A stretch of DNA of 64,000 nucleotides from Dyella sp. OK004 (GTDB taxonomy: Bacteria > Pseudomonadota > Gammaproteobacteria > Xanthomonadales > Rhodanobacteraceae), in assembly GCF_900114495.1 (NCBI RefSeq), contig NZ_FOZI01000004.1, positions 62,001 to 126,000 of the forward strand. Direction: 5' to 3'. Under the pieces are notes generated by a model. The model did not search any database and had not been told where the DNA came from. It worked only from the letters and a program-made list of their open reading frames with translations. This document shows, piece after piece, positions 13,216 to 59,360 of the stretch. The first letter of the stretch is position 1. Each line of letters begins with the position of its first letter. The position numbers were made by a program, and so were the translations under genes.

Positions 13216-13498
13216 TAGACGCCTGACACTGGAAAAGGCGTAGCTACAAAGCCCGCCGCCTGCTCTTCAGGCCATTTCTCTTTGGTTACTTTCTCTTGAC
13301 TCCGGGCATCCATGCCCTCCGCCCTTCGGGCCAGCTGCGCTGTTCGCACTCGCTCCTGCGGCTGCGTGGGCCAGCAAAGAGAAAGTGACCCGAGCCGCGG
13401 CAGCGGTTCGGAAGCCCGCGGCAGGCGAGCCAGGGCACGCAGACGCGACAACCAAGCGATAACGCCACTGGATCCCTGCCTGCGCAGGGATGACGAGT
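13216..13498 (-). repeat. Dispersed hairpin element (family 2, copy I), with internal insertion
   Basis: Runs from CGCCTGACACTGGAAAAGGC through GGCCATTTCTCTTTGGTTAC and GCAAAGAGAAAGTGACC to GGATCCCTGCCTGCGCAGGG. The other copies have a short loop between TTACTTTCTCTT and AAAGAGAAAGT. Here about 70 extra GC-rich bases (about 13299-13368) sit at the hairpin tip. It fills the gap between the thr operon end and the leu-ilv promoter. The rest of 13499-13563 holds only a degenerate family 1 fragment (CTCCCCTGCAAGCAGGG). Confidence 0.8.
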
Positions 13499-13563
13499 AG
13501 GTGGGGATATCGCAAGGGCCGAACCCTCAACACAGTTTCTCCCCTGCAAGCAGGGACGGGAGT

Positions 13564-14889
13564 TCAGGCTGTGCGTCGCGTTCTAGCCTGGGACTGAAGT
13601 AGCCAAAGCTTCAAAGCCTCATCGCTGGCCTCCAGCGGCTCCGCCTGCGCCGACCGATCCAGCATCGCCGCCAGAGCCGGCGGCACCGGCACGGAGCGGC
13701 CGATCAACGGCTCGACCACACTTTCGAACTTGGCCGGATGCGCGGTGGCGACCACGGCCCAGTCTTGCCGCTCACTGCGCTGGTCGAGCCGGTGCATGGC
13801 GGTTGCGGTGTGCGGGCAGAACACTTCGCCATGCTTGGCAGCGTGGAGTAGCACGGTGTCGCGGATGGTGCTGTCGCTGACGCTGTGTGCGTTGACCAGG
13901 GCGCGCAGTTCGTCGTCGTGCGGGAAGGTCCAGTGCAGTCGTTCGAAATTGCTGGGCGCGCCGACATCCATCGCATTGGCCAGGGTGGCGACGGCCGCGC
14001 GCGGTGTGTACGGCGCGCCGTCGAAGTAGTCGCTGAGGGTCTCGTTAGCATTGCAAGCCAGTTCGACCTCGCCGATGGGCAGGCCCATCTCGCGCGCCCA
14101 CAGACAGGCAAGGGCGTTGCCGAGGTTGCCGGTAGGCACGATGAAGTTGAGCGGGCGACCGTGATCGTGGTGCCAGCGCAGCGCGGCGTGCGCGTAGTAG
14201 GCCATCTGCGGCAGCAGGCGGCCGAGGCTGATGCTGTTGGCGGAGGACAGCGGGCGTTGCGCTTGCAGCGCGGCGTCGTTGAGCGCGGCCTTCACCATGC
14301 GCTGGCAGTCGTCGAAACGGCCGGCCACGCGCAGCGCCTGCACGTTATTGCCGAAGCAACCGAGCTGATGCGCCTGGCGCGGCGAGACCAGGCCATCGGG
14401 ATAAAGAATCACCACCTGCACGCCGGGTTGCCGGTGGAAGGCGGCGGCTACCGCGGCACCAGTGTCGCCAGAGGTGGCGACCAGGATGGTCAGCGGTGGC
14501 TCGCCCGTCTTGCGCAGGCGGCGGAAACAGCTGGCGAGGAAGCGCGCGCCGAAATCCTTGAATGCCGCGCTGGGCCCATGGAACAACTCCAGCATCGATG
14601 CGCCGGGATGGGACGGCAGCGGCCGCAGCGGTGCCTCGAAGTTGAACGCCTCCGCGCAGATGGCTGGCAGGACCTCGGCCAGCGGGTGGCCGGCGAAGAA
14701 CGGCATCAACAGGCGGGTAGCGGTGTCGGCCAGTTTGCCGTGCGGATCGAAGGTGGCCGGATCGAGTCGAGGCAGGGCCTCGGGAACATAGAGTCCGCCA
14801 TCCGGCGCGAGGCCGGCGGCAATCACCTGATCGATGCGCGCGCCGTCTCGCGCGCCGCGTGTGCTGTGATAAAGCAGGGGTTCGCTCAT
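13564..14889 (-). CDS. thrC: Threonine synthase
   Basis: PLP enzyme converting O-phosphohomoserine to threonine. The 441 residues start [12 protein letters not shown], with the PLP lysine motif [19 protein letters not shown] near residue 105, the phosphate loop [15 protein letters not shown] near 147 and the conserved [10 protein letters not shown] near 255. The length suits the shorter bacterial form (E. coli 428). Its ATG overlaps the thrB stop by four bases; the open frame further upstream lies in thrB. Last gene of the thr operon. Confidence 0.95.
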
Positions 14890-15866
14890 GCCTTCCTCGT
14901 GGCGTCGACTAGCGTGGCGGCGGGGCCGTTGATGGGCGAGACGAGCACATCGCTGTCCAGGCCGGCTTCGGCAAACGCGGCCGACATCGCGGCGGATGCC
15001 TTCAGGGCGTCCTCGCGCTGCTCGAACCAGCCGAACACGCTGGGGCCGGCGCCGGAGATGCTGGCGCCGAGTGCGTGGTGATCCATCGCCGCCTGCTTGA
15101 CGCGGTTGAAGCCGGGAATCAGCGGCGCGCGGCGCGGTTCCACCAGCACATCTTTCAGGCCGTCGCGGACCAGCGCGGCTTCGCCGCGATAGCAGCCGGC
15201 CAGCACCAGCGCAAGATTGGCGCTTTGCGCGACGAATTCGCCGAGTTGATAGTCGCCGGCCAAGGCCGCGCGGGCTTTGCGTGTCTCGAGCACCATGTGC
15301 GGATGGACCAGCGCGCAATGCCAATGTTCCGGCACCGGCACACGCACCAGGCGATCGCGGGTAGCGAGTACCAGGCCGCCCAGCAGCATCGGGCCCACGT
15401 TGTCGCCGTGGCGGCCGCCGCTGGCGACGGCTTCGCCTTCCAGCGCGAAGCCGTAGAGCGATTCGGCGGGTAGCGGGCGTTCCAGCAAGGCGTTGGCGGC
15501 GACCAGCGCGGCCACGCAGGAGGCGGCCGAGCCGCCCATGCCGGAGCCGAGCGCTATGCCTTTGTGCAGCACCACTTCGAAACCGTGTCGCAGGCCCAGC
15601 GCCTTGCGCAGCGCCATTAGCGCCATGCCGGCGGTGTTCTTCACGGCGTCCATCGGCAGCGCATCGACACAGCCATCAATCGCAGCGATGCGTACTACCG
15701 GTTCATCGATTCGGCGCACTTCGGCGCGATCACCAGCGCCCGCCACGCTATGGCCGAGGATGTCGAAGCCGATGCCGACATTGCCGACGCTGGCGGGCGA
15801 TTCGGCGTGAGCGGAGAGGGCGCGTTGCGGCAAGACAGACATCGATTCCACCAGTTGTGCGTTCAT
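14886..15866 (-). CDS. thrB: Homoserine kinase
   Basis: GHMP-family kinase that phosphorylates homoserine with ATP. The 326 residues have the substrate region [17 protein letters not shown] near residue 25, the ATP loop [19 protein letters not shown] near 105 (usual form GLGSSAAS), and the C-terminal motif [15 protein letters not shown]. Overlaps both thrC and the upstream homoserine dehydrogenase gene by four bases. Confidence 0.95.
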
Positions 15867-17026
15867 GCGCGCGCCTCCAGCGATTCGGCGATGCGCAGCA
15901 AGTCGCCGAACACTCCGGCCGCCGTCACTTCCGGCCCGGCGCCCGGTCCCTGCACCAACAGCGGATTGTCGTGGTAACGACGCGTGGTGAATTGGACCAC
16001 GTTGTCGGTCAACCGCGTATGGGCGAACGGATGAGATGAGGGCAGTACGGCCAATTTCACGCTGGCGCGGCCGTTGCGGTCGAGGCTGGCGACGTGGCGC
16101 AGCACGCCGTTGTGCGCGCGGGCCATCGCCAACTGCGCGGCCATCGGGGCGTCGAGCTCATCGAGCCGCGCCATGAAGTCGTCGACGGAGAGTGCGGCCA
16201 GTTCGGCGGGCACCAGGCTTTGTACTTCCACATCGTCCAGCGAAAGCGCCCAGCCGGCCTCGCGAGCGAGGATCACTAGCTTGCGCGCCACGTCCATGCC
16301 GGAGAGATCGTCGCGCGGATCCGGTTCGGTATAACCCAGCGCGTGCGCCTCGCGCACCAGCGCGGAGAACGGTTGCTGCCCGTCGTAACGGTTGCACAGC
16401 CAGGCCAGCGTGCCAGAGAACATGCCATCCACCGCGAGCAATTCGTCGCCGGTATCGAGCAGGTCGCGCAGCGTCTGCACCACCGGCAGACCCGCGCAGA
16501 CAGTGGCTTCGTAGCGGAAACGCATGCCGGCGCGACAGGCTGCGCGAATCGCTTCCCAACGCGATAGCGGGCCGCTGCCGGCGAGCTTGTTCGGGGTTAC
16601 TACATGCACGCCTTCGGCGAGCCAGTCGGCGTAGTGTGAGGCGACGACATCGTTGGCGCTGCAATCGATCAGCAGGGCGTGACGGCTGTCGTCGCCGCGA
16701 ATATGCGTTGCGAATTGCTGCAGGTCGGTAGGGCGCCAGATCTGCGCGCGGTCGCAGCGGTAATTGAGGTCCGGGTCGTCGCAGTCCAGCCACATGCGCT
16801 TGCTGGCGGCGACGCCGCACAGTCTCAGCTCAAGTCCCGCTTCGGACAGACGTCCCTGCGCCGCACGCAGTTGGGTGAGCAGGGCGCTGCCGACACGACC
16901 GGGGCCGATCAGACCCACGGCCAGCGTACGGCGGCGTGGAGTGGTCGTCGGCAGCGCACGTTGGAGCAGCGGTTGTTTAGGCGGCTCTTGATGAGCCTTG
17001 TCGAGTAGTGGTGCGAGAACGTTCAC
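15863..17026 (-). CDS. thrA: Homoserine dehydrogenase (ThrA-type domain without aspartokinase)
   Basis: Reduces aspartate semialdehyde to homoserine. The 387-residue product begins with about 35 non-conserved residues, then the NAD(P) motif [14 protein letters not shown]. It continues with [16 protein letters not shown] and the catalytic region [17 protein letters not shown] ... [17 protein letters not shown]. These match the C-terminal half of bifunctional ThrA, and there is no C-terminal ACT domain as in monofunctional Hom. In E. coli and described xanthomonads this half is fused to an aspartokinase; here the sequence upstream is leader and promoter, so the kinase must be encoded elsewhere. 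Start codon is GTG with AGGAG eight bases upstream. First gene of the thr operon. Confidence 0.9.
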
Positions 17027-17115
17027 GGTGGTCTCCTGGTTGGAGCCCCGTCTCGCTGGCGGTTCGGTGTGTGCCGGCCCGCCTCATCGAGGGCGGGGCC
17101 GTTGCGTGTGAGAGA

Positions 17116-17217
17116 TTACTCGCGCGCTGACACCCACCCGTGGCCGGTGGTACCGGTACCGGTGGTAATAGTCGTGGCGGAGATAGCTGCAGCGATGACG
17201 CCAGCGGACAACGTCAT
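17116..17217 (-). CDS. thrL: thr operon leader peptide
   Basis: A 33-codon ORF (MTLSAGVIAAAISATTITTG continuing TGTTGHGWVSARE). Between codons 12 and 25 it has seven Thr and two Ile codons, the same bias as E. coli ThrL. It lies 58 bases downstream of a predicted transcription start and about 90 bases before the homoserine dehydrogenase gene. A GC-rich hairpin (GGCCCCGCC ... GGCGGGCC, 17077-17101) follows the stop codon but has no U-run, so the terminator part is unclear. GGGAG lies only one base before the ATG; a TTG two codons later is better spaced. Confidence 0.78.
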   Translation of the reverse strand: MTLSAGVIAAAISATTITTGTGTTGHGWVSARE

Positions 17218-17281
17218 GCTCCCGGTGGAAGCCGGGTGGCGATACATGCGGGCTGGCGCGGATAGCGGCGACATGTGGCTG

Positions 17282-17311
17282 ACCATACGAGCCATGCTGC
17301 ACCGCAGTCAA
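17282..17311 (-). promoter_or_regulatory. Promoter of the thr operon
   Basis: Minus-strand TTGACT (17306-17311), an 18-base spacer and TATGGT (17282-17287), placing the start near 17275 and the thrL ATG 58 bases downstream. The remaining bases to 17463 hold the upstream region of the divergent gene; nothing else was recognised there. Confidence 0.7.
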
Positions 17312-17463
17312 CAGGTTCATCTGAAACTTTACGAGGGTGGGATGGCCCGGTCCGGGCTGCCTGGAATGGGTTCTGGCGACGGCAGCGAAACGAGGGCGAA
17401 TTCCGTCCTGTTACTTGCCTAACTTGATGCGGCACCGACACACCTTCCGCCCTGGAGCCCGCC

Positions 17464-18036
17464 ATGCCGATCAAGACGCGCCTTGCCGTTGCCGCCATAA
17501 CGCTTCTGTTGTCCGCCGTGACGCCGTGGGTAAGCCACGCCGCGCAGACGGATATGCCGGCAGCGGCGCGTGATAGCTCCCGGGATCTGGATTTCCTCCG
17601 CGGCAGCCCCTGGCACGTGCACAACCGGCAGTTGCCCAAGCGCCTGGCCGGCTCGCATGACTGGGTGGAGTTCGATGCCACTGACGAATTCATCGCCCTG
17701 CCGGGCAACCTCGGCAACGAAGAGCACTACCGCACCGACCACTGGAAGGATTTCGTCAGCGTCGCGTTCCAGCTCTACAACCCGAAGACCCGGCAATGGA
17801 ACGAGTACTTCGTGGAAAACCGCAGCGCACCCGGCGTGCTGCAGCCGCCGGTTACCGGTGGCTTCACGGGCGATGTCGGCCACTTCGAAGGCCAGGACAC
17901 CTACGCCGGCAAACCGATCACCGTGCGCACCACCTGGCGGCGGCTCGGGCCGAACCATGTGACCTGGGAGCAGGCGTTCTCGCCGGACGGCGGCAAGTCC
18001 TGGGAAACCAACTGGACCATGGACTTCACGCGCTGA
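17464..18036 (+). CDS. Exported DUF1579-like protein
   Basis: A 190-residue protein with a Sec signal peptide (about residues 1-26, hydrophobic core AVAAITLLLSAV, cleavage near SHA). The mature part starts DLDFLRGSPWHVHNRQLPKR and resembles DUF1579-type domains: a DFL..G.W.VHNR..K start, a LGN.EEY-like segment (LGNLGNEEHYR has the same spacing) and a C-terminal SPDGGKSWETNWTMDF. These are thought to form a lipocalin-like beta barrel; the role is unknown. GGAG lies seven bases before the ATG. The next gene follows after 30 bases and encodes another exported protein, so the two probably form an operon. Confidence 0.72.
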   Translation: MPIKTRLAVAAITLLLSAVTPWVSHAAQTDMPAAARDSSRDLDFLRGSPWHVHNRQLPKRLAGSHDWVEFDATDEFIALPGNLGNEEHYRTDHWKDFVSVAFQLYNPKTRQWNEYFVENRSAPGVLQPPVTGGFTGDVGHFEGQDTYAGKPITVRTTWRRLGPNHVTWEQAFSPDGGKSWETNWTMDFTR

Positions 18037-18066
18037 TCCGTCATGACACCACATCAAGGGCAAACC

Positions 18067-18921
18067 ATGAATCGCTTTGAACGTCTTCTGGCTGGCACGC
18101 TGGCCTCGGTCATCACCTGCGCCGCCGCCGCGCAAACCGCGCCCGCGGGCAACGCTGCGGCGCAGGCCGAAAGCGTGAAACACCTGTCCAGCTTCCAGAC
18201 CATCGAACTGCGCCGCTACACCACTAGCGATGGTGCGCGCGCACGCTTCGCCAAGTACTTCGATACCTATTTCCCGGAGGCCTTCGAACAACTGGGCGCG
18301 ATGGTGTTCGGGCAATTCCTCGAGCGCGGCAATCCCAATCACTTCACCTGGCTGCGCGGTTACAAGGATCTGTCCGCGCGCCCGGTGGTCTGCGCCGAGT
18401 TCTATTACGGTCCGCTATGGAAGGAGCATCGCAGCAAGGTCAACGCCATCCTGCCCGACAGCGACAACGTGATCCTGTTGCAGCCACTGCATCCCGAGCA
18501 TGGTTTGCTGGTGCTGCCGGCGGTCGATCCCGTAGAGGAGACCAAGGGGGCGCAAGGTGTGGCCGTGATGCAGATCTTCCCGGTGAAGAAGGGCAGCGAG
18601 GAAGCTTTCGCGAAGCAGACCGAGGCGGCGTTTGCGCGCTATCGCATCGACGGTGTGCGCGAAGCGGGCGTACTCATTTCGCTCGACGTGCCTAATAACT
18701 TTCCGCAATTGCCGATACGCACGGATGGTCCGTGGCTGGTCTGGGTGGGCGTGGTGAAAGACAACGCGACACTCGACGCGAAAGCCGCACCGGCGATGAA
18801 AGCCGCCGAGCAAGCGCTCGCCGCCACCGGGCTGCTGCGCGGTGAGATCGAACGCGTGGTGATGGACCCGACACCGCGCTCGCGACTGCGCTGGCTGGAA
18901 AGCGGCAACCCGTCGCCGTGA
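18067..18921 (+). CDS. Exported NIPSNAP-family protein
   Basis: A 284-residue protein with a signal peptide (LLAGTLASVITCAAAAQTA). It has two related halves, each like a NIPSNAP ferredoxin-like domain: the first begins TIELRRYTTSDGARARFAKY and has PEAFEQLGAMVFGQF, the second runs from about residue 160 (VAVMQIFPVKKGSEEAFAKQ). Such dimeric alpha-beta barrel folds occur in NIPSNAP and related monooxygenase-like proteins, usually cytoplasmic or mitochondrial; an exported one is less usual. The start was set at MNRFERLL rather than the ATG eight codons earlier because it precedes the signal peptide directly. Function unknown. Confidence 0.72.
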   Translation: MNRFERLLAGTLASVITCAAAAQTAPAGNAAAQAESVKHLSSFQTIELRRYTTSDGARARFAKYFDTYFPEAFEQLGAMVFGQFLERGNPNHFTWLRGYKDLSARPVVCAEFYYGPLWKEHRSKVNAILPDSDNVILLQPLHPEHGLLVLPAVDPVEETKGAQGVAVMQIFPVKKGSEEAFAKQTEAAFARYRIDGVREAGVLISLDVPNNFPQLPIRTDGPWLVWVGVVKDNATLDAKAAPAMKAAEQALAATGLLRGEIERVVMDPTPRSRLRWLESGNPSP

Positions 18922-18966
18922 GTTCGTGAGGCTACGAGTGGAAGAGTCCGCGGAGCGGCGGAGCCG

Positions 18967-19209
18967 TTATTTGCCTGTGCGCCAACGGGGCGGCTCACCT
19001 TTCCACCAGCAGATGGCAACCAGAAGTACGGTCCATAACGCGGTGCATACCAGGAAAGCGTTGCGTTGCTGCGGAAGCAGCAGCGCCGCGGATGCGGCCA
19101 TCACCCCGGCGTAGCCCAGCAGAACCGTCCAGCCTTGCCAGGTCGTCGGTACGCCCCATCCCCATCCGTAGCGCTTGGCGGGGAACCAGTAGCTTGGCTG
19201 TCGCGACAT
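18967..19209 (-). CDS. Small membrane protein, unknown function
   Basis: An 80-residue protein (MSRQPSYWFPAKRYGWGWGV start) with two predicted transmembrane helices (about residues 24-42 and 50-68) and a basic tail PPRWRTGK. AGGGA lies upstream of the ATG. Both ends are Trp-rich. No family recognised. It is divergent from the DUF2501 gene and convergent with the NIPSNAP gene. Confidence 0.6.
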   Translation of the reverse strand: MSRQPSYWFPAKRYGWGWGVPTTWQGWTVLLGYAGVMAASAALLLPQQRNAFLVCTALWTVLLVAICWWKGEPPRWRTGK

Positions 19210-19417
19210 GACTTGGCTTCCCTGAAGTGGCAGAACGATGAGCCTGCAAACCGAGCATTGCAGAAAGCTTCTGTTTGGGACTACCCCGACGCCGGAAATC
19301 CATATCCATTCACACACGATGGACCAAAGTGATCCGGCTGGGCCGCCTTCTTACGGTGACGCCGGCATAACAAAGCGCAGTGTTGAATGCGCTCACCTGA
19401 CGGACGGAGGGACGCAC

Positions 19418-19960
19418 ATGAAGAAGCGTATCGGCGGTATCGCAACAACGGGTCTGGCCATCGCGCTCGGTCTCGCATGCAGCACCAGTGGTGCGCAGGA
19501 TCTGGGCAAACTCGGCGGACTGCTTTCCGGCGGCGGCGGCTCGATGAGTTCCGGCAGCATGGGTAATGTGGCTGGCCTGCTGCAGTACTGTGTGAAGAAC
19601 AATTACCTCGGCGGCGATTCGGGCGCGTCCGGCATCAAGGATCAGCTGCTCGGCAAGCTGGGCGGTGGTTCCTCCGGCTCAAGCGGCAGCAGCGACAAAT
19701 CGTCGGGCACCAGCGACATGCTGGGTGGCTTGTTGGGCGGCAAGAAAAAGAAAGCCGCCGCGACCAGCGGTGATGCCACCAGCGATCCAGGCTACCTGAG
19801 CGGTGCCAAGGGCATCCTGCAGACCGGCAGCGGCAAGAGCATGGATCTGTCCAGCCTCGGTGGTGGTAGCAGTGGCGGCTCGAGCGACCTCAAGTCGCAG
19901 CTCACCCACAAGGTCTGCGACACCGTGCTGAAGCAGGGTAAATCCTTCATCGGTATGTAA
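19418..19960 (+). CDS. Exported DUF2501 (YjjA-like) protein
   Basis: A 180-residue protein with a signal peptide (IATTGLAIALGLACSTSGAQ). The mature part is dominated by Gly/Ser: GGLLSGGGGSMSSGSMGN, SSGSSGSSDKSSG and DLSSLGGGSSGGSSDLKSQL. Two cysteines are spaced as in the E. coli YjjA family (LLQYCVKNNYL near residue 50 and THKVCDTVL near 170). GGAGG lies eight bases before the chosen ATG. YjjA-type proteins have no established function. A strong inverted repeat follows the stop. Confidence 0.75.
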   Translation: MKKRIGGIATTGLAIALGLACSTSGAQDLGKLGGLLSGGGGSMSSGSMGNVAGLLQYCVKNNYLGGDSGASGIKDQLLGKLGGGSSGSSGSSDKSSGTSDMLGGLLGGKKKKAAATSGDATSDPGYLSGAKGILQTGSGKSMDLSSLGGGSSGGSSDLKSQLTHKVCDTVLKQGKSFIGM

Positions 19961-19971
19961 CCGGCAAAGGA

Positions 19972-20004: not shown

Positions 20005-20011
20005 ACGACAC

Positions 20012-26926: not shown

Positions 26927-27083
26927 TCGCGACCTGGCCGCTTATGCAGCGGGCATTCCGCCTCGCTGCCGCGAGCCGGGTAACTTTCTCTTTGCTGACC
27001 CAAAGAGAAAGTAACCAAAGAGAAATGGCCTGAAGAGCAGGCGGTGTGCTCTGTAGCTACGCCTTTTCCAGTGTCAGGCGTCG
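26927..27083 (+). repeat. Dispersed hairpin element (family 2, copy II)
   Basis: Contains GGTAACTTTCTCTTTGCTGA, CCCAAAGAGAAAGTAACC, AAAGAGAAATGGCCTGAAGA and ends GCCTTTTCCAGTGTCAGGCG. The head differs from copies IV and V (CGACCTGGCCGCTTATGCAG instead of the GTCATCCC module) but matches copy III. Copy III follows in opposite orientation after about 107 bases. Confidence 0.82.
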
Positions 27084-27190
27084 AGATGTTTTTCTCCGAC
27101 ATCGAGTACTACTGCTTTGGCCCCTCTCCACAGAGTGGGGAAGAGAAAAAGTGAGAGCACGAGTTTCTCGGTAACGCCATGCTTCCAACG

Positions 27191-27350
27191 TCTGACACTG
27201 GAAGACGCCTAACTACGAAGCACGCCGCGCTCTTCCAGACCATTTCTCTTTGGTTACTTTCTCTTTGGGTCAGCAAAGAGAAAGTGACTCGGGCGCCGGC
27301 AGGCGTCCGAAATGCCCGCTGCATAAGCGGCCAGGTCGCGATAGCGCCAC
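27191..27350 (-). repeat. Dispersed hairpin element (family 2, copy III)
   Basis: Reverse orientation of copy II: GTCTGACACTGGAAGACGCC, CCATTTCTCTTTGGTTACTT, CAGCAAAGAGAAAGTGACTC, then CTGCATAAGCGGCCAGGTCG. Copies II and III thus form an inverted pair with a unique core at 27084-27190. Together they account for most of the gap 26822-27391. Confidence 0.82.
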
Positions 27351-42984: not shown

Positions 42985-43194
42985 TCGTCATCCCTGCGCA
43001 GGCAGGGATCCAGTGGCGTTATCGCTCGGTCTTAGCGTCTGGGTGCCCTGGCTCGCCTGCCGCGGGCTTTCGAACCGCTGCCGCGGTCCGGGTCACTTTC
43101 TCTTTGCTGGCCCAAAGAGAAAGTAACCAAAGAGAAATGGCCTGAGAGCAGGCGGTGTGCTCTGTAGCTGCGCCTTTTCCAGTGTCAGGCGTCG
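42985..43194 (+). repeat. Dispersed hairpin element (family 2, copy IV)
   Basis: Complete copy of about 210 bases. Head GTCATCCCTGCGCAGGCAGG ending ATCCAGTGGCG, middle CGGGCTTTCGAACCGCTGCC, central hairpin TCACTTTCTCTTTG / CCAAAGAGAAAGTAAC, AAAGAGAAATGGCCTGAGAG, tail GCGCCTTTTCCAGTGTCAGG. Lies directly after nagX and is most similar to copy V. Confidence 0.87.
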
Positions 43195-47857: not shown

Positions 47858-50197
47858 ATGCAGAAGAATCTGCTGGCTGCCGCTGTAGCCATCATCCTTG
47901 CCGGTTTCGTTCCCGCCGTTTTCGCGAATGATGCCGATCAGCCCGCCGCTGACGCTGCTGCCGTAAAGCCGGATGCCGCGAAGAACCTGGAGGGCGTTTC
48001 CGTGATTGGCCAGGGCGAAACCCGCCAGGTGCAGCGCGTGACCCCGGCGGATACCACGGTGCTGCCGGCTGGTACCAGCATCCAGAAGGTGCTGAACCGC
48101 ATGCCGGGCGTGAACGTGCAGTCCAACGATGCGTTCGGTGCGAATGAGGAATCGCAGACCATCAGCCTGCGCGGCTTCAACGGCCAGCGCCTGGGCTACA
48201 CGCTGGATGGCGTGCCGCTCGGCGACAACGCCTATGGCAACTACAACGGCCTCAATATCAGCCGCGCGCTGATTTCCGAGAACGCCGTGGGCGCGGAACT
48301 GGCGGAAGGCATCGGCAGTCTCGGCATCGCCTCCACCAGCAATCTCGGCGGTGCGATCCAGTATTTCTCGGCCGATCCGGAAGCCAAGTTCGGCGGCCGC
48401 TTCGGGCAGACCTTCGGCAGCGACCAGAACCGCCGCACCTATCTGCGTCTGGACACCGGTGACTATCACGGCTTCTCGATGTATCTCTCGGGTATCCGCG
48501 CCACCGCCGACATGTGGGCGCCGCCGAGTTCGCCGACTACCACCAAACAGTTCAACGCCAAGGCGGTGTATCAGTTCGAAGGCGGCCGTATCACCGCGTT
48601 CGCCGATACCTCGCGCACCTCGCAGGCTGACTACGCTTATCTCTCCAAGAGCGGCATGGGGCGCGGCCTCGGTTGGGACTGGAATCTGTACGCGCCGGAC
48701 TGGAAGCGCGCACTGGCCGCGGCGTATTGCGCGCCGGCTTACACCATCAAGGGCGCGAAGGATGCGCGCTGCGGATTCTCTGGCGGCGTCGACAATATCG
48801 ATGACGCTTACTACCAGAGCCGCGCGCTGCGCCGCGACGATCTCTACTACCTTGCCGGCGATTTCAATCCGAGCGAGAGCGTGACCCTGCATGGCCAGGT
48901 CTATCACCACGAGAACGCCGGCCAGGGCCACTGGTGGTCGCCAGGCCAGAAGTCGAACCCGGGCACGGCGCAGGAGCTGCCGATCTCGATCCGCAGCACC
49001 AACTACAAGATCAACCGCACCGGCGCCATCGCCTCGCTGGGCTGGGATATCGGCGAGCATCATCTGGAAGGCGGCGTGTGGTACGAGCAGAACCACCACA
49101 ACGTCGAGCGCAACTTCTACTACCTTCCTTTTTCGAGCAGCACCGCGCCGATCAACGACGACAGCTACCTCAGCAACCCGGACCGCCGCCTGTTCAGTCA
49201 GGCCTATGTGATCACCACACGCCAGGCCTATGTGCAGGACAGCTTCAAGCTGCTGGACGACAGGCTCAGCGTGGACGTGGGCGTAAAGAGCCCGCACACC
49301 ACCATGACCGCGAAGCAGGCCACCGGCAATTTCGAGGCGCCGGTCGCCAACGGCACCTTGAAGGCAGAGAAGAACCTGCTGCCGCAGATTGGCCTGGGCT
49401 ACAAGATCGACGCGAACCAGGAGCTGTTCCTCTCCTACGCGAAGAACATTGCCGCGTTCCAGGGCGGCGGCGCCAGCGGTCCGCTGCTGGTGACGCAGTC
49501 CTCGTTCAATGCCACGCAGGGCAATCTCAAGCCGGAGCAGTCGCGCACCATCGAAGGCGGCTATCGCTATGTGCAGCGCGAATTTGAAGCGTCGGCCGCG
49601 CTGTACGACGTGAAGTTCGACAACCGCCTGCTCTCGCTCAACCCCTGCCCGAGCATTCAGCAGGGCACCACGGCGGCATGTACCACGCGCTTCTATAACG
49701 TGGGTTCGGTGAGCAGCAAGGGTGCGGAATTCACCTTTATCTGGAAGCCGTTCGAACATTTCCAGTGGTACAACTCGGCGTCGTTCAACCGCTCCACCTA
49801 CGACAACGACTACGTGCAGAACGGCGTGACTGTGCCGACCAAGGGCAAGATCACGGTCGACACGCCCAAGCGCATGTTCGCCAGCGAAATCAGCTGGGTC
49901 TATGGCCCGTGGAACGTGAGCCTGCGCGGCAAGTACACCGGCACGCGCTACTACACCTACACCAATGATCAGGGCTTCGGCGGCTACACCTCGTTCGACT
50001 TCGGTGCGGGTTACGACTTCGGTGCGGCGTGGTTTGCGCAGGACATTCGCCTGTCGCTCAACGTCACCAACCTGACTGACAAGCGCTACGCTTCCAACCT
50101 CACGGCGTTTGCCAACACCGATCCGAACGGGCGGCAGCTGGCATTCCACGCGAGTGCGCCGCGGCAGAGTTTCCTGACGTTGGATGTGAAGTTCTGA
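47858..50197 (+). CDS. TonB-dependent receptor (organophosphate-cluster paralogue 1)
   Basis: A 779-residue outer membrane receptor. Signal peptide at 1-24 (VPAVFAN), a box VSVIGQGETRQVQRV near 50, plug with MPGVNVQSNDAFGANEE and LRGFNGQRLGYTLDGVPLGD, then a barrel ending FLTLDVKF. It is smaller than and unlike the two GlcNAc-locus receptors but clearly paralogous to the one at 53108. The genes between the two paralogues encode GlpQ and an NPP-like enzyme, so a phosphorylated substrate is plausible; not proven. The substrate could also be a metal chelate. Confidence 0.85.
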   Translation: MQKNLLAAAVAIILAGFVPAVFANDADQPAADAAAVKPDAAKNLEGVSVIGQGETRQVQRVTPADTTVLPAGTSIQKVLNRMPGVNVQSNDAFGANEESQTISLRGFNGQRLGYTLDGVPLGDNAYGNYNGLNISRALISENAVGAELAEGIGSLGIASTSNLGGAIQYFSADPEAKFGGRFGQTFGSDQNRRTYLRLDTGDYHGFSMYLSGIRATADMWAPPSSPTTTKQFNAKAVYQFEGGRITAFADTSRTSQADYAYLSKSGMGRGLGWDWNLYAPDWKRALAAAYCAPAYTIKGAKDARCGFSGGVDNIDDAYYQSRALRRDDLYYLAGDFNPSESVTLHGQVYHHENAGQGHWWSPGQKSNPGTAQELPISIRSTNYKINRTGAIASLGWDIGEHHLEGGVWYEQNHHNVERNFYYLPFSSSTAPINDDSYLSNPDRRLFSQAYVITTRQAYVQDSFKLLDDRLSVDVGVKSPHTTMTAKQATGNFEAPVANGTLKAEKNLLPQIGLGYKIDANQELFLSYAKNIAAFQGGGASGPLLVTQSSFNATQGNLKPEQSRTIEGGYRYVQREFEASAALYDVKFDNRLLSLNPCPSIQQGTTAACTTRFYNVGSVSSKGAEFTFIWKPFEHFQWYNSASFNRSTYDNDYVQNGVTVPTKGKITVDTPKRMFASEISWVYGPWNVSLRGKYTGTRYYTYTNDQGFGGYTSFDFGAGYDFGAAWFAQDIRLSLNVTNLTDKRYASNLTAFANTDPNGRQLAFHASAPRQSFLTLDVKF

Positions 50198-52863: not shown

Positions 52864-52909
52864 GCAAACGCCCGGAGATGCGCACGGATTTGCGAAGTTG
52901 TTGCATTTA

Positions 52910-53107: not shown

Positions 53108-55378
53108 ATGTCAGTTCGCAAGAGTTCTATCCGCATGACGGGTCTCGCGCTGGCGTTGTTCGCGGCGCTGCATGGTGTAGCCGTTGCCGCCGATAACGAT
53201 GTGGCGCCGGCTGCTGCTGATGCCGCGGCCGACAAAGCCAAGACGCTGGATTCGGTGTCGGTGATTGGTCAGGGCGAGTCGCGCCAGGTGCAGCGCATCA
53301 CCGTCGAGGACGTGAAGGTCTTGCCGCCGGGCACCAGTCCGCTGAAGGTGCTGGCGAGCAAGCCGGGCGTGCATTTCGAGTCGTCCGATCCGTTCGGTGC
53401 GTACGAGTGGTCCACGCGTTTCAGCCTGCGCGGTTTCAATCAGAGCCGCCTTGGCTTCACGCTCGATGGCATTCCGCTTGGCGACATGAGCTACGGCAAT
53501 AACAACGGCCTGCATATCAGCCGTGCGCTGATTGCCGAGAATCTCGGCAGTGCGGAACTGGCGGAAGGCATCGGTTCGCTCGGCACGGCATCGACCAGCG
53601 ACCTGGGCGGCGCGGTGCAGTTCTTTTCCTCCGATCCCACGCCGAACTACGGCTTGACCTTTGCGCAGGGCATCGGCACCGACAGCGTGCGCCGCACCTA
53701 TGTGCGCCTGGATACGGGCAACAAGGACGGCTTCGCCATGTATCTGTCGGGCGCGTATTCCACCGTGGACAAGTGGAAAGGCGACGGCGCGCAGGAGCAG
53801 ATGCAGTTCAACGTCAAAGCCACCTACGATTTCGGCGACAGCCGCATCGGTGCGCTGCTGACCACCTCCGACCGCGACGAGACCGACTACCAGGATCTGT
53901 CGCTGGACATGCTGCATCGTCTGGGCTGGAACTGGGACAACTACGCGCCGGACTGGAACCGCGCGGTGAATGCGGCCAAGGGTGTTTACACCGGCGGTGT
54001 CAACAATCCGGACGACGCGTACTACGCCGGTCGCGGCGTGCGCAAGGACCGTATCGCCAGTGTGTTCGGTGACTTCGCGCTGGCCGAGGGCCTGCGCCTG
54101 AAGGCCACCGGTTACTACCACTACGATCGCGGCCAGGGTCACTGGTTCACGCCGTATCAGGCTTCGTTCCCGGGCACGCCGCAGGCTACGCCGATCTCGA
54201 TCCGCACCACCGAATACGGCATCGACCGCGCCGGCGCCACCGCCGCGCTGAACTGGGACATCGGTGCGCATCATCTGGAAGCGGGCGTGTGGTACGAGGA
54301 CAGCAACCACAACGTGCAGCGCAACTTCTACTACATCACCGGCCCGGTGGATGACCGCAAGTTCCTCAAGAACCCGGACCTGCGCCTGTTCTACCAGCAC
54401 TACGAAACCACCACGTACCAGTACTACATCCAGGACAGCATGCATCTGCTGGACGACCGCCTGGCGATCGACGTCGGCTTCAAGGCGCCGGACACCAAGG
54501 TCGAAGCGCGCAACATGCCGGGCACGATCAAGACCTACGCCACCGGCGACCTGACCGCCAAGAAGAACTTCCTGCCGCAGGTGGGCGCCAGCTACAAGCT
54601 GGGCGACGGTTTCGAAGTGTTCGCCTCGTACGCGAAGAACATCGCCGCGTTCCAGGCCGGTGTGACCGGTCCGCTAGCGACCACCCAGGTGGCGTTCGAC
54701 ACCTTCGGCAAGAAGCTGAAGCCGGAGCAGTCGCGCACCATCGAAGGTGGCCTGCGCAGCGTCACGGATTTCTACGAGGCCTCGCTGGCCCTGTACGACG
54801 TGAAGTTCGACAACCGCCTGCTGGTGATCTCGCAGTGCAGCGGCATCGTCGGTTGCCCCAGCGGCTATGCCAACGTCGGTTCGGCCACCAGCCGCGGCGC
54901 TGAGCTGGCCTTCAACCTCAAGCTGACCCCGGAACTGCGCTGGAACAACTCGCTGTCGTACAACCGCTCGCGCTACGACGACAACTATATGGACGGCAGC
55001 ACGCTGGTGCCGACCAAGGGCAAGACCGTAGTCGACAGCCCCAAGCAGCTGTTCTTCAGCGAGCTGGCCTGGGTCCATGGCCCGTGGGATCTGCGCGTGT
55101 CGGCCAACTACACCGGCAAGCGCTACTACACCTATACCAATGACGCCTCGGTGCCGTCGTACTGGCTGTTCAACCTGGGCGCCGGCTACGACGTGGGCAA
55201 GGTCGGCGTGGTGCAGGACCTGAAGTTCGCGCTCAACGTGACCAACCTGGCCGACAAGAAGTACTTCGGCTCCATCGGCACCAACGGCTTTATCGCCAAC
55301 GACCCGCAGGGCCAGTTCGCCACCCTGCAGGTGGGTGCCCCGCGTGCCGCGATGCTTACGGCAACCTTGCGTTTCTGA
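53108..55378 (+). CDS. TonB-dependent receptor (organophosphate-cluster paralogue 2)
   Basis: A 756-residue outer membrane receptor paralogous to the one at 47858: same box VSVIGQGESRQVQRI, plug LRGFNQSRLGFTLDGIPLGD and LAEGIGSLGTASTSDLGGA, and a barrel ending MLTATLRF. Signal peptide residues 1-28 (ALHGVAVAAD). The start at MSVRKSS was chosen over an ATG 46 codons upstream because AAAGGA is well placed before it and the signal peptide begins there. A strong terminator follows. No Pho-box-like site was seen upstream; a separate palindrome lies there instead. Confidence 0.85.
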   Translation: MSVRKSSIRMTGLALALFAALHGVAVAADNDVAPAAADAAADKAKTLDSVSVIGQGESRQVQRITVEDVKVLPPGTSPLKVLASKPGVHFESSDPFGAYEWSTRFSLRGFNQSRLGFTLDGIPLGDMSYGNNNGLHISRALIAENLGSAELAEGIGSLGTASTSDLGGAVQFFSSDPTPNYGLTFAQGIGTDSVRRTYVRLDTGNKDGFAMYLSGAYSTVDKWKGDGAQEQMQFNVKATYDFGDSRIGALLTTSDRDETDYQDLSLDMLHRLGWNWDNYAPDWNRAVNAAKGVYTGGVNNPDDAYYAGRGVRKDRIASVFGDFALAEGLRLKATGYYHYDRGQGHWFTPYQASFPGTPQATPISIRTTEYGIDRAGATAALNWDIGAHHLEAGVWYEDSNHNVQRNFYYITGPVDDRKFLKNPDLRLFYQHYETTTYQYYIQDSMHLLDDRLAIDVGFKAPDTKVEARNMPGTIKTYATGDLTAKKNFLPQVGASYKLGDGFEVFASYAKNIAAFQAGVTGPLATTQVAFDTFGKKLKPEQSRTIEGGLRSVTDFYEASLALYDVKFDNRLLVISQCSGIVGCPSGYANVGSATSRGAELAFNLKLTPELRWNNSLSYNRSRYDDNYMDGSTLVPTKGKTVVDSPKQLFFSELAWVHGPWDLRVSANYTGKRYYTYTNDASVPSYWLFNLGAGYDVGKVGVVQDLKFALNVTNLADKKYFGSIGTNGFIANDPQGQFATLQVGAPRAAMLTATLRF

Positions 55379-55387
55379 GCGAAAGAG

Positions 55388-55427
55388 GCCGCCTTTCGGG
55401 TTCTGTGAACCCGGAAGGCGGCTGTTT
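55388..55427 (+). terminator. Intrinsic terminator after TonB receptor 4
   Basis: GCCGCCTTTCGGGTTC and GAACCCGGAAGGCGGC form a 16-bp stem with one mismatch and a TGT loop, followed by TGTTT. Confidence 0.85.
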
Positions 55428-55494
55428 GCACGCCACTGCAGCCATGCGGTGGCGGCTTGGCTATGATCCGCCGGACCACCTACCGGTTGCATGC

Positions 55495-56232
55495 ATGGCC
55501 GTCCTATCTACCGCTGTACCGTCGTACGCAACATCGCGCTGGCTCAGTTTCGCCACCCTTTGCCTTGTCCTCGGCGCCATCGCCGGCGGACTGCTGGCGG
55601 AGGACACCTCGGACTGGTTGTGGCTGCATTGGGTGTGCAAACCCCTGGCCACCGCCATGGTGTTCTGGATCGCCTGGCGCACGCCGGCTCCCATCTCTCC
55701 GCGCTATCGCCAGTGGGTGCTCGGCGGCATCGGCCTGTCGCTGGTGGGCGACGTGTTGCTGATGCTCCCGCAAGATTTGTTCGTGGAAGGCCTGGTGGCT
55801 TTCCTGTTCGCGCATCTGTGCTTTCTGGTGGCACTGAGTACCGATGCGCGTTTTGGCGTGCGCCCGCTCGCCCTGCTGGGCAGCCTTGCCTACGGCGCGC
55901 TCACGCTCTGGTCGCTGTGGCCGTCGGTGCCGGAAGCATTGCAACTGCCGGTGGTGGTCTACACCGTGGTGCTGGCCACCATGGGTGGGCAGGCCATGGG
56001 GCGCGCCTGGCAACACGCCTTGCAGCGCGATGTGCTGGCGAACCCGGCATGGCTCGCCGCCTGCGGCGCCGTGCTGTTCATGGCCAGCGACACGTTGCTG
56101 GCGTGGAATCGCTTCCGCATCAACCTGCCCTGGGCAGTGTTGTGGGTGCTGGCGGCCTACTATGGTGCGTTGTGGCTGCTGGCGCGCTCCGTCGCCAGCG
56201 CCGAACCGGATGAGTTGAGCCCGCCTCTTTGA
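55495..56232 (+). CDS. Lysoplasmalogenase-like membrane protein (YhhN family)
   Basis: A 245-residue membrane protein with about eight helices and no signal peptide. It resembles YhhN/TMEM86: CKPLATAMVFWIAW near residue 50, GLSLVGDVLLMLP near 80, AFLFAHLCFLVAL, and FMASDTLLAWNRF near 200, which places the expected acidic residues in helices. Eukaryotic relatives hydrolyse vinyl-ether lysolipids; bacterial function is unproven. The start is ATG at 55495, another ATG lying four bases before. The sterol desaturase gene follows with three bases between. Confidence 0.78.
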   Translation: MAVLSTAVPSYATSRWLSFATLCLVLGAIAGGLLAEDTSDWLWLHWVCKPLATAMVFWIAWRTPAPISPRYRQWVLGGIGLSLVGDVLLMLPQDLFVEGLVAFLFAHLCFLVALSTDARFGVRPLALLGSLAYGALTLWSLWPSVPEALQLPVVVYTVVLATMGGQAMGRAWQHALQRDVLANPAWLAACGAVLFMASDTLLAWNRFRINLPWAVLWVLAAYYGALWLLARSVASAEPDELSPPL

Positions 56233-56234
56233 AC

Positions 56235-57506
56235 ATGCCGAGTTCGAGCACTCAGGAAGTCATCATCACCTGGGCGACGCCCGTGTTCTTCGCCTTGATC
56301 GCGCTGGAACTGCTGGTGGCGCGCTGGCGCGGCCGCCGTGTGTATCACGCCGGCGATGCGATCAACAGCCTCGGTTTGGGCGTGATCTCGCAGATTGCGG
56401 CGGTGTTTTCCAAATTGCTGACCCTGGGCATCTACGCCTGGTGCGTGGAACATCTGGCGCTATTCGCGTTGCCCGCCGATGCGTGGTGGGTGTGGGTGAG
56501 CGCGCTGGTGCTGTACGACTTCTTCTACTACTGGCTGCACCGCGCCGGGCATGAGGTGAACATCCTGTGGGCCGCGCATGTGGTGCATCACCAGAGCGAG
56601 GACTACAACCTGAGCACCGCGTTGCGCCAGACCGGCAGTGGCGTGTTGCTCAGCTGGATATTCTACCTGCCGATGGCGCTGCTGGGTTATCCGTTGCAGG
56701 TGTTCGTGGTGGTGGCGCTGATCGATCTGCTTTATCAGTTCTGGGTGCATACCGAACTGGTGGGGCGGCTGGGCTGGTTCGATCGTGTGTTCTGCTCACC
56801 CTCCAATCATCGCGCGCATCATGCGGTGAATGATCGTTACCTCGACAGGAACTACGGCGGCATCCTGATTTTGTGGGATCGCCTGTTCGGCAGCTTTGTG
56901 GAAGAGAGCGACGACGATCCGCCGATCTACGGCACACGTGCGCCGCTGCGTAGCTGGAATCCGCTATGGGCTAACGCCGAGGTGTATTGGGCAACGCTGA
57001 AGGATGCGTGGCACGCGCGGCGCTGGCGCGACAAGTTACTGGTGTGGATCAAGCCGCCGGGCTGGCGTCCGGTCGATGTGGCGGCGCGCTTTCCCAAGCC
57101 CGCCTTCGATATCCGGCGCGAGCGCTACCACCCGCCGCTGCCTGCCGCCCTCGTTATCTATGGTGTGGTGCAGTTCGCCTTGCTGCTGGGGATGGGTGTG
57201 CATTTCCTGGATCTGGCCAAGCGGTTGCCGGCGTCGGGGTTGCTGGCATACGCGGGATTTCTGCTGTTGAGCCTGGGTGCGCTGGGTGTGTTGCTGGAAG
57301 GGCGGCGCGCTGGGTTCTGGCTTGAGCTGCTGCGCCTGTTGGTGACGGCGATAGTGGCGCTGGCGATGGGTGGCTGGTTTGCCGTGGCGCAGCCGGGGGT
57401 TGGTTTTGCGATTGCGGCGGTTTATCTGCTGAGTGGGGTCGCGCTGGTGGGGTTGGCCCGGTGGCCCATGTCGCGTACATCAAATGAGATGCCGCGGGCG
57501 CTCTAG
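56235..57506 (+). CDS. Sterol desaturase / fatty acid hydroxylase family membrane protein
   Basis: A 423-residue di-iron membrane protein. Histidine clusters match the family: WLHRAGHEVNILWAAHVVHH (HxxxH ... HxxHH) near residue 100, and NHRAHHAVNDRYLDRNYGG near 195. Several helices precede and follow; the C-terminal 120 residues add four helices beyond the core domain. Family members hydroxylate or desaturate lipids; the substrate here is unknown. ATG at 56235 chosen; a TTG two codons earlier overlaps the upstream stop. Apparently co-transcribed with the YhhN-like gene, both lipid related. Confidence 0.85.
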   Translation: MPSSSTQEVIITWATPVFFALIALELLVARWRGRRVYHAGDAINSLGLGVISQIAAVFSKLLTLGIYAWCVEHLALFALPADAWWVWVSALVLYDFFYYWLHRAGHEVNILWAAHVVHHQSEDYNLSTALRQTGSGVLLSWIFYLPMALLGYPLQVFVVVALIDLLYQFWVHTELVGRLGWFDRVFCSPSNHRAHHAVNDRYLDRNYGGILILWDRLFGSFVEESDDDPPIYGTRAPLRSWNPLWANAEVYWATLKDAWHARRWRDKLLVWIKPPGWRPVDVAARFPKPAFDIRRERYHPPLPAALVIYGVVQFALLLGMGVHFLDLAKRLPASGLLAYAGFLLLSLGALGVLLEGRRAGFWLELLRLLVTAIVALAMGGWFAVAQPGVGFAIAAVYLLSGVALVGLARWPMSRTSNEMPRAL

Positions 57507-57508
57507 CT

Positions 57509-57550
57509 CGTCATTGACCAGCTTCACAACAGCGAAGCTGGTCAATGACG
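57509..57550. repeat. Perfect 17-base inverted repeat
   Basis: CGTCATTGACCAGCTTC and GAAGCTGGTCAATGACG are exact complements around the loop ACAACAGC. Begins two bases after the sterol desaturase stop. Without a U-run it is not a clear terminator on either strand. Confidence 0.75.
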
Positions 57551-57649
57551 GAGTAGGGAGGTCGTCAAACACCACGTCCGCGCACCCGCAGCATGGCGCC
57601 AGTGGACGCATTCGCTATGATCGCCGCTTCGTTGTCCGGGATCTTTGCG

Positions 57650-59086
57650 ATGAGCGTTGCTAGCAAGCTGTTGCGTCACAAGTCGGTCGAACAACTCCAG
57701 GCGGATGTCGGCAAGCGCGGGGATTTCCGCCGCGTGCTGGGCTTGTGGCAGCTCACCGCGATCGGTATCGGCGGCATCATCGGCGTCGGCGTGTTCGTGC
57801 TGGCCGGTCAGCAGGCGGCTTTGAACGCCGGTCCGGCAGTGGCCCTCTCGTTCCTGATCGCCGGCATTGCCAGCGCGGCAGCAGCGTTGTGTTACGCCGA
57901 ATTCGCCGGACTGATCCCGGTCACCGGCAGCGCCTACACCTACGGTTATGCGGTGCTTGGCGAGTTGCCGGCGTGGCTGATCGGTTGGGATCTGTTGCTG
58001 GAATACGCACTGATCGTGGCGGTGGTGGCGATCGGTTGGTCGGGCTATGTGCAATCCGCGCTAAGCAGCATCGGCGTCGATCTGCCGGTATGGGCCAAAG
58101 GGGCCATCGGCACTGGCGAAGGCCATGTATTCAACGTGATCGCTGCACTGGTGACGCTGGGGGTATCGGCGTTGCTGATCTTTCGCACGGAGTGGGGCGC
58201 GCGCTTCAATACGCTGGTGGTGGCGATCAAGGTCGCTGCGGTGATATTGGTGATCGGTATCGGTGCTTTTTACGTCAACCCGTCCAACTGGGTGCCGTTT
58301 ATCCCAGAGCGCGTCGTCGGTGCTGATGGCGTCGGCCATTTCGGCTTTCAAGGCGTGGCCTCTGCCGCCGCGGTCGTGTTCTTCGCGGTCTTCGGCTACG
58401 ACACGCTCACCACGGCTGCCGAGGAATCCAAGAATCCCCAGCGCGATTTGCCGCGAGCGGTGTTGTTGTCGCTTGGCATTTCCATGGCGATGTATCTGGC
58501 GGTGTCGCTGATCCTCACCGGCATCGCCCACTACAGCACGCTCAAGACCGACGCGCCGGTGGCTGATGCTTTCAAGGGTCTGGGCCTGCATTGGGTGGCG
58601 CTGACTGTTTCAGTGTCGGCTGTATTCGGACTGATAAGCGTGCTGTTCGCCTTCATGCTTGGCGCGACGCGCATCTGGTTCGCGCTTGCGCGCGATGGCC
58701 TGTTGCCGGGCTGGTTCGCGAAGGTGCACCCGCGCTATGGCACGCCGCACCGGCCGACCATTGTGCTGGGCGTGTTCACTTCGTTGGTGGCGGGCCTTTT
58801 GCCGATTGAGGAAGTGGCGAAGCTGGTGAATATCGGTGTGCTCTCTGCTTTCATCGTGATCTGTTCGTCGGTGATGCTGCTGCGCAAGCGCAAGCCGGAT
58901 TTGCATCGCTCGTTCCGCACGCCGTTGGTGCCGTTGATTCCGCTGGTCGGTATCGGGTTTTCGATCTGGTTGTTGGCGGAGTTGCCGTTGATCACCTGGA
59001 AGGTGTTTTTGATCTGGGTGAGCTTGGGGCTGGTTGTTTACTTTGCCTATGGCATCCGCCACAGCAAGTTGGAGAAGGGCGCGTAA
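57650..59086 (+). CDS. Amino acid permease (APC superfamily, CAT type)
   Basis: About 478 residues with 12 helices, starting MSVASKLLRHKSVEQLQADV and the helix 1 motif GIGGIIGVGVFVLAGQQA, followed by GLIPVTGSAYTYGYAVLGEL, FFAVFGYDTLTTAAEESKNP and MLGATRIWFALARDGLLPGW, as in the cationic amino acid transporter (YfnA-like) group. It imports amino acids by proton symport; the substrate is unknown. The start was set at the MSVAS methionine because family members begin with such RxKSxE tails, though the upstream ATG at 57593 in frame is possible and neither has a strong ribosome site. Confidence 0.85.
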   Translation: MSVASKLLRHKSVEQLQADVGKRGDFRRVLGLWQLTAIGIGGIIGVGVFVLAGQQAALNAGPAVALSFLIAGIASAAAALCYAEFAGLIPVTGSAYTYGYAVLGELPAWLIGWDLLLEYALIVAVVAIGWSGYVQSALSSIGVDLPVWAKGAIGTGEGHVFNVIAALVTLGVSALLIFRTEWGARFNTLVVAIKVAAVILVIGIGAFYVNPSNWVPFIPERVVGADGVGHFGFQGVASAAAVVFFAVFGYDTLTTAAEESKNPQRDLPRAVLLSLGISMAMYLAVSLILTGIAHYSTLKTDAPVADAFKGLGLHWVALTVSVSAVFGLISVLFAFMLGATRIWFALARDGLLPGWFAKVHPRYGTPHRPTIVLGVFTSLVAGLLPIEEVAKLVNIGVLSAFIVICSSVMLLRKRKPDLHRSFRTPLVPLIPLVGIGFSIWLLAELPLITWKVFLIWVSLGLVVYFAYGIRHSKLEKGA

Positions 59087-59100
59087 TCACGCGCACTTTG

Positions 59101-59125
59101 CACCCTCTCCCTTGGGGAGAGGGTG
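59101..59125. terminator. Perfect 11-bp hairpin after the permease gene
   Basis: CACCCTCTCCC, TTG loop, GGGAGAGGGTG, without a U-run. Similar CTCTCCC...GGGAGAG pieces recur at 59411-59440, so it may also be a degenerate family 1 fragment. Confidence 0.5.
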
Positions 59126-59151
59126 CGGCACTTGTGATATCCCCTTCTACT

Positions 59152-59360
59152 TCGTCATTCCGGCGAAGGCCGGAATCCAGTGCCTTATCGCCCGGGTTTA
59201 GCGTCTGCGTGCGCGGGCTCGCCTGCCGCGGGCTTTCGAACCGCTGCCGCGGTCCGAGTCACTTTCTCTTTGCTGGCCCAAAGAGAAAGTAACCAAAGAG
59301 AAATGGCCTGAGAGCAGGCGGTGCGCTCTGTAGCTGCGCCTTTTCCAGTGTCAGACGTCG
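59152..59360 (+). repeat. Dispersed hairpin element (family 2, copy V)
   Basis: Complete copy close to copy IV. Its head is the variant GTCATTCCGGCGAAGGCCGG AATCCAGTG (in two parts), then CGGGCTTTCGAACCGCTGCC, hairpin TCACTTTCTCTTTG / CCAAAGAGAAAGTAAC and tail GCGCCTTTTCCAGTGTCAGA. The rest of the gap 59087-59485 holds CTCTCCCC-type repeats only. Confidence 0.87.

Follow-up and report, generated by a model that had tools for sequence, protein, structure and literature searches.

A putative pseudoknot-locked purine-motif DNA triplex in the core of a dispersed intergenic element of Dyella and other bacteria

The stretch of DNA analysed here (the window; 64,000 nucleotides, G000:C7:62001-126000) belongs to a 4.96-Mb Dyella genome of the class Gammaproteobacteria and contains five copies (I to V) of a repeat. 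We think this repeat is probably a dispersed, non-coding, structured DNA element, the core of which would fold as a purine-motif triplex locked by a pseudoknot. Comparison of its variants shows, at the level of the letters, that four linked parts of the core persist as its sequence varies: a hairpin (S1, with arms S1a and S1b), a GTAACC turn, a purine third strand that repeats the purine arm of S1 as its mirror image, and a pairing between the S1 loop and the letters that follow the third strand (S2). Across many bacteria, a change in one of the three strands tends to be matched in the others, so that selection seems to maintain the fold itself. At issue is whether intrastrand DNA triplexes are of consequence in bacterial cells. 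Earlier work on such triplexes, cited throughout from excerpts (Holder et al., 2015; PMC4666352), rests there on abundance and on instability near a motif named TM_ECO, with no structural signal in vivo. The scores of natural variants described below provide a genetic argument, in that the third strand follows the duplex in mirror register and the loop-to-tail lock covaries.

Parts of the core and their covariation

A sequence-only reading of the window had located five copies of the element, and all are present; the core CAAAGAGAAAGTAACCAAAGAGAAATGG matches five times with at most three mismatches, against 0 expected (100 dinucleotide shuffles). From the head, the modules are a P0 hairpin, the S1 hairpin, a C, the purine strand and the letters complementary to the S1 loop (S2). 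S1 is a 10-15-bp hairpin made of a GTYAC-pyrimidine arm, a loop and a purine arm-GTAAC (form GTYACTTTnnn/nnnAAAGTAAC), and the near-invariant turn GTAACC lies between its purine arm and the third strand. The core of copy IV reads GTCACTTTCTCTTTG, CTGGCC and CAAAGAGAAAGTAAC, followed by CAAAGAGAAAT and then by GGCC. The central hairpin had been given 14 bp; it has 15 positions (GTCAC..GTAAC), one of which is a C.A mismatch in GTCAC copies. The string CAAAGAGAAATGGCCTG is more than a repeat: CAAAGAGAAA is the mirror of the purine arm of the hairpin, and GGCC can pair with the hairpin loop. As read from the letters, the layout of the element is that of a purine-motif (class II) intrastrand triplex with a pseudoknot lock, outer hairpins and inverted pairing of copies. 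It runs 5' pyrimidine arm, loop, purine arm, loop, purine third strand, with the third strand antiparallel (mirror) to the purine arm, and class II intrastrand triplexes are described by the same pyrimidine-purine-purine(mirror) order (PMC4666352).

Since the host's purine strand AAAGAGAAA reads the same in both directions, direct and mirror copies are indistinguishable there, and the relatives decide. We retained 178 of 180 instances, including locus L064 found with another pattern, and dropped two judged to be chance hairpins. A gap-free alignment (A1) took in only hairpins of 34 nt and has 58 distinct rows; 40 are different strings found among the 178 instances, and 18 come from later loci, among them L222, probably a chance match. 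The search patterns leave columns 1-8 and 27-34 of A1 almost no freedom, and in the class and phylum searches they also required M, A and A at third-strand columns 36-38 and either A or G at column 39. The rows share descent, so that shuffles overstate significance; the variants span many genera.

The mirror register holds in 443 of the 464 cells of A1 (95.5%; 354±9 when shuffled), compared with 352/464 (76%) for the best of 21 other registers. On columns 39-43, which no pattern fixed to one letter, the mirror match is 271/290, against 182±9 in shuffles (maximum 213 in 2000) and 238/290 for the best other register, a direct one. The 178 instances comprise 58 distinct purine-arm/third-strand types, 47 of them informative; their informative positions favour the mirror 125 times, a direct copy nine times and neither 14 times, and mirror matches total 409/449 versus 313±8 with third strands shuffled among types. 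Mutual information for third-strand columns 39-42 peaks exactly at the mirror column; for column 43 it peaks at column 21 instead. Individual variants follow the same course: S1b CAAGAAAAG is followed by the third strand AAAAGAA (L119), CAAAAGAGAAG by AAGAGAAAAC (L084, L093) and GAGAAAAG by AAAAGAG (L108). On these mirror-register counts, the reading of the second CAAAGAGAAA as a direct repeat or an alternative hairpin was rejected.

The pairings S1 and S2 also change in concert. The sequence-only reading had proposed looking for compensatory changes in aligned copies, and changes on both sides of S1 and S2 exceed those in shuffles (136 cells versus 45.3±5.3; 9-45 in slid versions). Together, 91.6% of the S1 and S2 cells of A1 pair, versus 79.2% when shuffled, and sliding by 1-3 columns lowers pairing to 41-52%. 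Within S1, both-side change occurs in six of 14 pairs and seven are invariant; pair 3-32 is C.A in 26/58 rows, and this C.A pair in GTCAC/GTAAC fits a clamp able to open. S2 pairing was not an entry condition for the alignment. All four S2 pairs change on both sides, and 179/232 S2 cells pair versus 123±6 with whole rows shuffled (maximum 145). In free register, at least four Watson-Crick pairs form in 57 of 81 loop/S2b types (shuffles 14.4±2.9, maximum 28 in 2000). Swaps of both partners are seen within the host genome (GGCC/GGCC to GACC/GGTC) and elsewhere, from TGTCC/GGACA to TATCC/GGATA (L129) and from GTGGCC/GGCCAC to GTGGTC/GACCAC (L083). In copy II and L023, S2 is imperfect (GACC versus GGCC).

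Upstream of the core, a P0 hairpin of at least six pairs is present in 93/124 stretches (38% in shuffles), and copy IV folded alone as single-strand DNA gives z=-4.5 (200 shuffles). Among 64 own copies flanked by 600 bp on each side, 31 have the head GTCATYCC...GGRATCCAG no more than 250 bp upstream and pointing the same way (reversed: 0). It had been noted on copies IV and V, where it stands; copy I has it too, and in the window only I, IV and V carry it. This head, GTCATTCC..GGAATCCAG, presumably resembles Neisseria dRS3-type palindromes. The likeness is confined to the head module, the core being different; dRS3 is listed by name in PMC2267715. One copy (L018 1485-1530, G000:C2 ~355360) has the 15-base unit CAAAGAGAAAGTAAC tandemly duplicated, and long-loop copies (window 13285-13389; L032, L047, L075) have in the S1 loop a shared insert that contains hairpins of its own.

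Distribution, inverted pairs and placement

The sequence-only reading described a structured, modular, high-copy and dispersed element, which is strongly supported, and suggested a search for copies outside the window: the 30-base core form occurs at 156 places in the host genome (66 forward, 90 reverse; reversed-pattern control 0). The exact core is present in the named genomes Dyella subtropica RXD159 and Dyella sp. SG609. Across the family, the own-type core with at most three mismatches was found in 50/233 genomes. Across the class, the clamp-fixed pattern GTYACTTTN{14,30}AAAGTAACCMAAR was found in 31/369 genomes of 28 genera, its reversed control matching once, in G516. In a draw of 398 genomes from the phylum it was found in 33, with no match in rows outside the class.

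A more distant occurrence came from a 651-bp query taken from locus L238 of a genome (G805, family f171) that is probably a Pseudomonas. It matched plasmid pILYOP01 of Ilyobacter polytropus (Fusobacteriota). A pattern search of this 961,624-bp record found 20 copies with AT-rich flanks (reversed control 0). S1, the third strand and S2 are all retained in them; the S2 letters differ, are A/T-rich and pair (CTTGAA/TTCAAG, CTTGAT/ATCAAG), and where P0 would stand there is an outer hairpin like ATAAATTACTGAATTTAT. The L238 composite matched two plasmid records and no phage, and a 246-bp copy had no match in plasmid and phage records. Two assembly contigs of the host genome end within ~20 bases of a copy (G000:C1, copy at bases 21-50; C5, copy at 152319-152348 of 152368); the element probably breaks the assembly there.

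Both solitary and inverted-pair forms occur. Copies II and III, previously counted as separate copies, turn out to be the two arms of one inverted pair, heads outward and tails inward. Pairs like II/III, ~320-360 bp apart, were found at L002, L003, L021, L022, L023 and L029, and comparable ones, with inner inverted repeats judged by eye, in G805, G1112, G1068, G031, G032 and G023. Ilyobacter has six inverted pairs (S1 to S1 ~340-425 bp) in the arm combinations b/c, d/c and a/c. The pair at L238:540-1240, folded as single-strand DNA, gives z=-17.7 (20 shuffles). More distant inverted copies also exist: those of L231 (G1064), 3.1 kb apart, bracket small open reading frames, one PAAR-type-like by eye. 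The genes between the distant copies of L231 and L239 were considered as movers, and by eye they look like ordinary flanking genes.

The intergenic location reported for the window copies extends to the genome, with gene overlap in two of 68 distinct own-genome copies according to our rough gene caller. By the same caller, 54 own copies have both neighbours within 900 bp, oriented (head/tail) opp/opp in 19 cases, same/opp in 13, same/same in 13 and opp/same in nine. A transcription-linked reading (terminator or 3' untranslated region), suggested by the window copies, was rejected on these 54 copies, which show no fixed gene orientation. In the host, the G-rich strand holds 60/69 exact-core copies on C6, C7 and C8 up to 944 kb (p=2e-10), and adding C2 and C5, where the sampled skew is of one sign, 74/89 copies follow the GC skew (p=1.5e-10), both among the 100 of 156 matches listed; C1 and C3, where the skew is mixed, were excluded. 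Counted by stretch, single copies are 30 leading to 11 lagging and TM_ECO motifs 19 to 3; for Ilyobacter single copies the tally is 6/8. As a family-wide property, leading-strand orientation was discarded: it is strong in the host genome and fails in G287.

The site of copy V is informative as to movement. No element is present at the orthologous site in G189, G287 and G125, and no element pattern matched the orthologous locus of G278; G277 and G279 have other subtypes in the same orientation (G189 and G277 are of the same genus as the window). The same place and orientation with a different subtype recur at window IV/L057, L024/L073 and L005/L210, which suggests that sites are reused or that copies are homogenised within species. 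At the site orthologous to that of copy V in L204 (2879-3068) stands another repeat-like stretch (GTAGGAGC...GCTCCTAC). The mobility proposed by the sequence-only reading is thus supported by presence and absence at an orthologous site and by the many copies in a Fusobacteriota replicon; against it, no mover was found.

The proposed fold and its alternatives

When the strand becomes single, at a replication fork or during repair or uptake, S1 would fold. The purine tail would double back and lie in the major groove, forming a reverse-Hoogsteen third strand in antiparallel orientation (G.GC, A.AT), with the near-invariant GTAACC serving as the triplex turn, and S2 would lock the triplex as a pseudoknot. 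Selection would act on this fold because something recognises it, or because it stalls or redirects DNA synthesis. The element would spread as solitary copies and inverted pairs in the manner of REPIN/BIME, either moved in trans or copied by the host. Slippage yields direct copies and strand switching yields inverted copies, and neither yields mirror images; for this reason, selection on the fold is the simplest reading.

Several observations weigh against this proposal. TM_ECO, the closest relative motif, folds in vitro, but no triplex was seen in vivo by dimethyl sulfate (DMS) probing (PMC4666352). The same paper attributes purine-motif stability to G-G-C triplets; the core of our element is mostly A. 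A 5-bp clamp with a one-base linker (C) would make a tight turn unless the clamp opens. The third strand of L114 (AAAAGATAA) can be fitted to S1a directly as well. Of five whole-structure measures, one comes close to its shuffles: the number of pairs with both-side change is 10 versus 8.0±1.0 when shuffled, a value reached by 28/500 shuffles. Of the 58 A1 rows, 40 had been admitted only if S1 formed at least nine pairs, so that S1 covariation alone is weak evidence, and S2 has fewer than four Watson-Crick pairs in 24/81 types. The strand bias is not general, with 5 leading to 12 lagging copies in G287 (5/17 with skew). Neither a mover nor a target-site duplication was identified.

In the excerpts of PMC4666352, the G/C-rich TM_ECO, which equals BoxC and PIT, forms a triplex in an isolated strand, gives no DMS signal in vivo and is surrounded by raised genome instability. 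It shares with our element the class II order and an intergenic, dispersed distribution in Proteobacteria, and an inverted TM_ECO pair of E. coli K-12 at 164.5 kb, third strands inward, parallels our inverted pairs. The element differs in its unrelated sequence, A/G-rich and variable as compared with TM_ECO CCCTCNCCC, and in having the S2 lock, the GTAACC turn and P0; these excerpts describe neither an A/G-rich family nor a loop-to-tail lock. The TM_ECO consensus CCCTCNCCCN3-6GGGNGAGGGN3GGGNGAGGG is absent from the element core and present nearby, at 59413-59447. In 863 kb of the host genome, chosen partly for having element copies, each of the 27 TM_ECO motifs is at most 264 bp from an element and points the same way as the nearest one; within 600 bp of 64 own copies, 24 have the same and two the opposite orientation. 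TM_ECO also occurs in 26/178 other loci (two of the 178 being own-genome), and was absent from 20 stretches of 20 kb of G287. It is possible, although we put this forward tentatively, that the element is a naturally selected DNA triplex with a pseudoknot, conserved between Gammaproteobacteria and Fusobacteriota, which a host or mobile-element protein recognises when it is single-stranded, BoxC/TM_ECO being a simpler, G/C-rich member. No paper describing the family was among those listed by searches of the open-licence PubMed Central literature; the ITxF database of PMC4666352 may contain its sequences, unnamed. In any case, the element supplies ready-made variants for tests of triplex formation, polymerase stalling and protein binding.

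It is unlikely that the core acts as a structured non-coding RNA or a 3' untranslated region element, in which S1 and S2 would make up an RNA pseudoknot with the A-rich strand packed against the S1 minor groove. S1 and S2 do covary as expected of RNA, A-rich L3 strands are usual in RNA pseudoknots, and window copies II-V each have a gene reading toward the head. However, the 54 own copies are not consistently placed with respect to transcription, the G-to-G matches in mirror register are not predicted by packing in the minor groove, and a scan of 20 loci at E<=1 gave no Rfam match to the core; among the six hits listed are TwoAYGGAY in L104 (above gathering score) and RsmW in L114, both downstream of the core. 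In the window, where a match to a known family had been named as a check, no Rfam family reached the gathering score bar one tRNA. The structured RNA envisaged by the sequence-only reading is less likely than structured DNA, given the mixed gene orientation and a third-strand geometry that is that of a purine-motif triplex, and purine-motif triplexes cannot form in RNA (PMC4666352). We regard as very improbable a double-stranded H-DNA in which only the mirror repeat R-GTAACC-R matters: the mirror repeat with its 6-base spacer speaks for it, but duplex H-DNA requires neither S1a nor S2, and yet S2 pairs and covaries. Searches of viral contigs gave two and 0 stretches, and the two (L277, L278), one possibly a chance match, lack S1a.

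The remaining alternatives concern how the element moves. High copy number, short extragenic hairpins and the coexistence of inverted doublets and singlets recall REPIN/BIME sequences (PMC3116915), and the host genome, like 18 of 25 other element-bearing genomes, has one Y1_Tnp gene. A REP/REPIN-type element moved by a Y1 (RAYT) transposase is nevertheless improbable: seven of the 25 genomes, six of them at least 99% complete, have no Y1_Tnp match, none of 26 fetched Y1_Tnp loci (~3.3 kb each) contains an element, no RAYT link was found, and the third strand and pseudoknot set the element apart. We therefore do not retain the Y1 transposase as mover. The single RAYT-like Y1_Tnp gene of the host lies at L063 1462-2157 (G000:C6 ~866300), a 3.3-kb locus with no element. 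A miniature inverted-repeat transposable element (MITE) of an unidentified DDE insertion sequence, with incidental internal hairpins, is similarly improbable. Inverted pairs ~320-750 bp apart, one with a long internal inverted repeat when folded, would suit a MITE, whereas solitary arms are common, arms are reshuffled between Ilyobacter pairs, the Ilyobacter flanks reveal no target duplication by eye and no clean empty site was seen. Such an origin would also leave the triplex and the S2 covariation unexplained.

Copies and neighbouring features in the window

Copy I (13216..13498, minus strand) has its head at 13468-13494, P0 at 13390-13412, S1 with a long loop at 13285-13389, third strand and S2b at 13270-13284 and tail at 13220-13240. 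The hairpin loop holds ~70 extra bases, a form also found in L032 and L047. Copy II (26927..27083, plus strand), the left arm of the inverted pair, comprises P0 (26956-26979), S1 (26980-27015), third strand and S2b (27016-27030) and tail (27060-27081); its S1a starts GTAAC, with A.A at the position of the clamp mismatch, and its imperfect S2 sets the loop CTGACC against GGCC. The right arm, copy III (27189..27350, minus strand), has P0 at 27289-27311, S1 at 27253-27288, third strand and S2b at 27238-27252 (GACC/GGTC) and tail at 27189-27208.

The other two copies are on the plus strand. Copy IV (42985..43194) consists of head 42987-43013, P0 43069-43091, S1 43092-43127, third strand and S2b 43128-43142 and tail 43170-43191, and copy V (59152..59360) of head 59154-59180, P0 59235-59257, S1 59258-59293, third strand and S2b 59294-59308 and tail 59336-59357. 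Copy V is followed, in the same orientation, by the TM_ECO/BoxC-type G/C-rich class II triplex motif (59413..59447, plus strand; consensus from PMC4666352), and a TM_ECO-like hairpin without a third strand lies upstream of it (59103..59123, plus strand). Elsewhere in the window, 47978-49968 and 53237-55143 contain DNA blocks 71-88% alike, probably duplicated genes.

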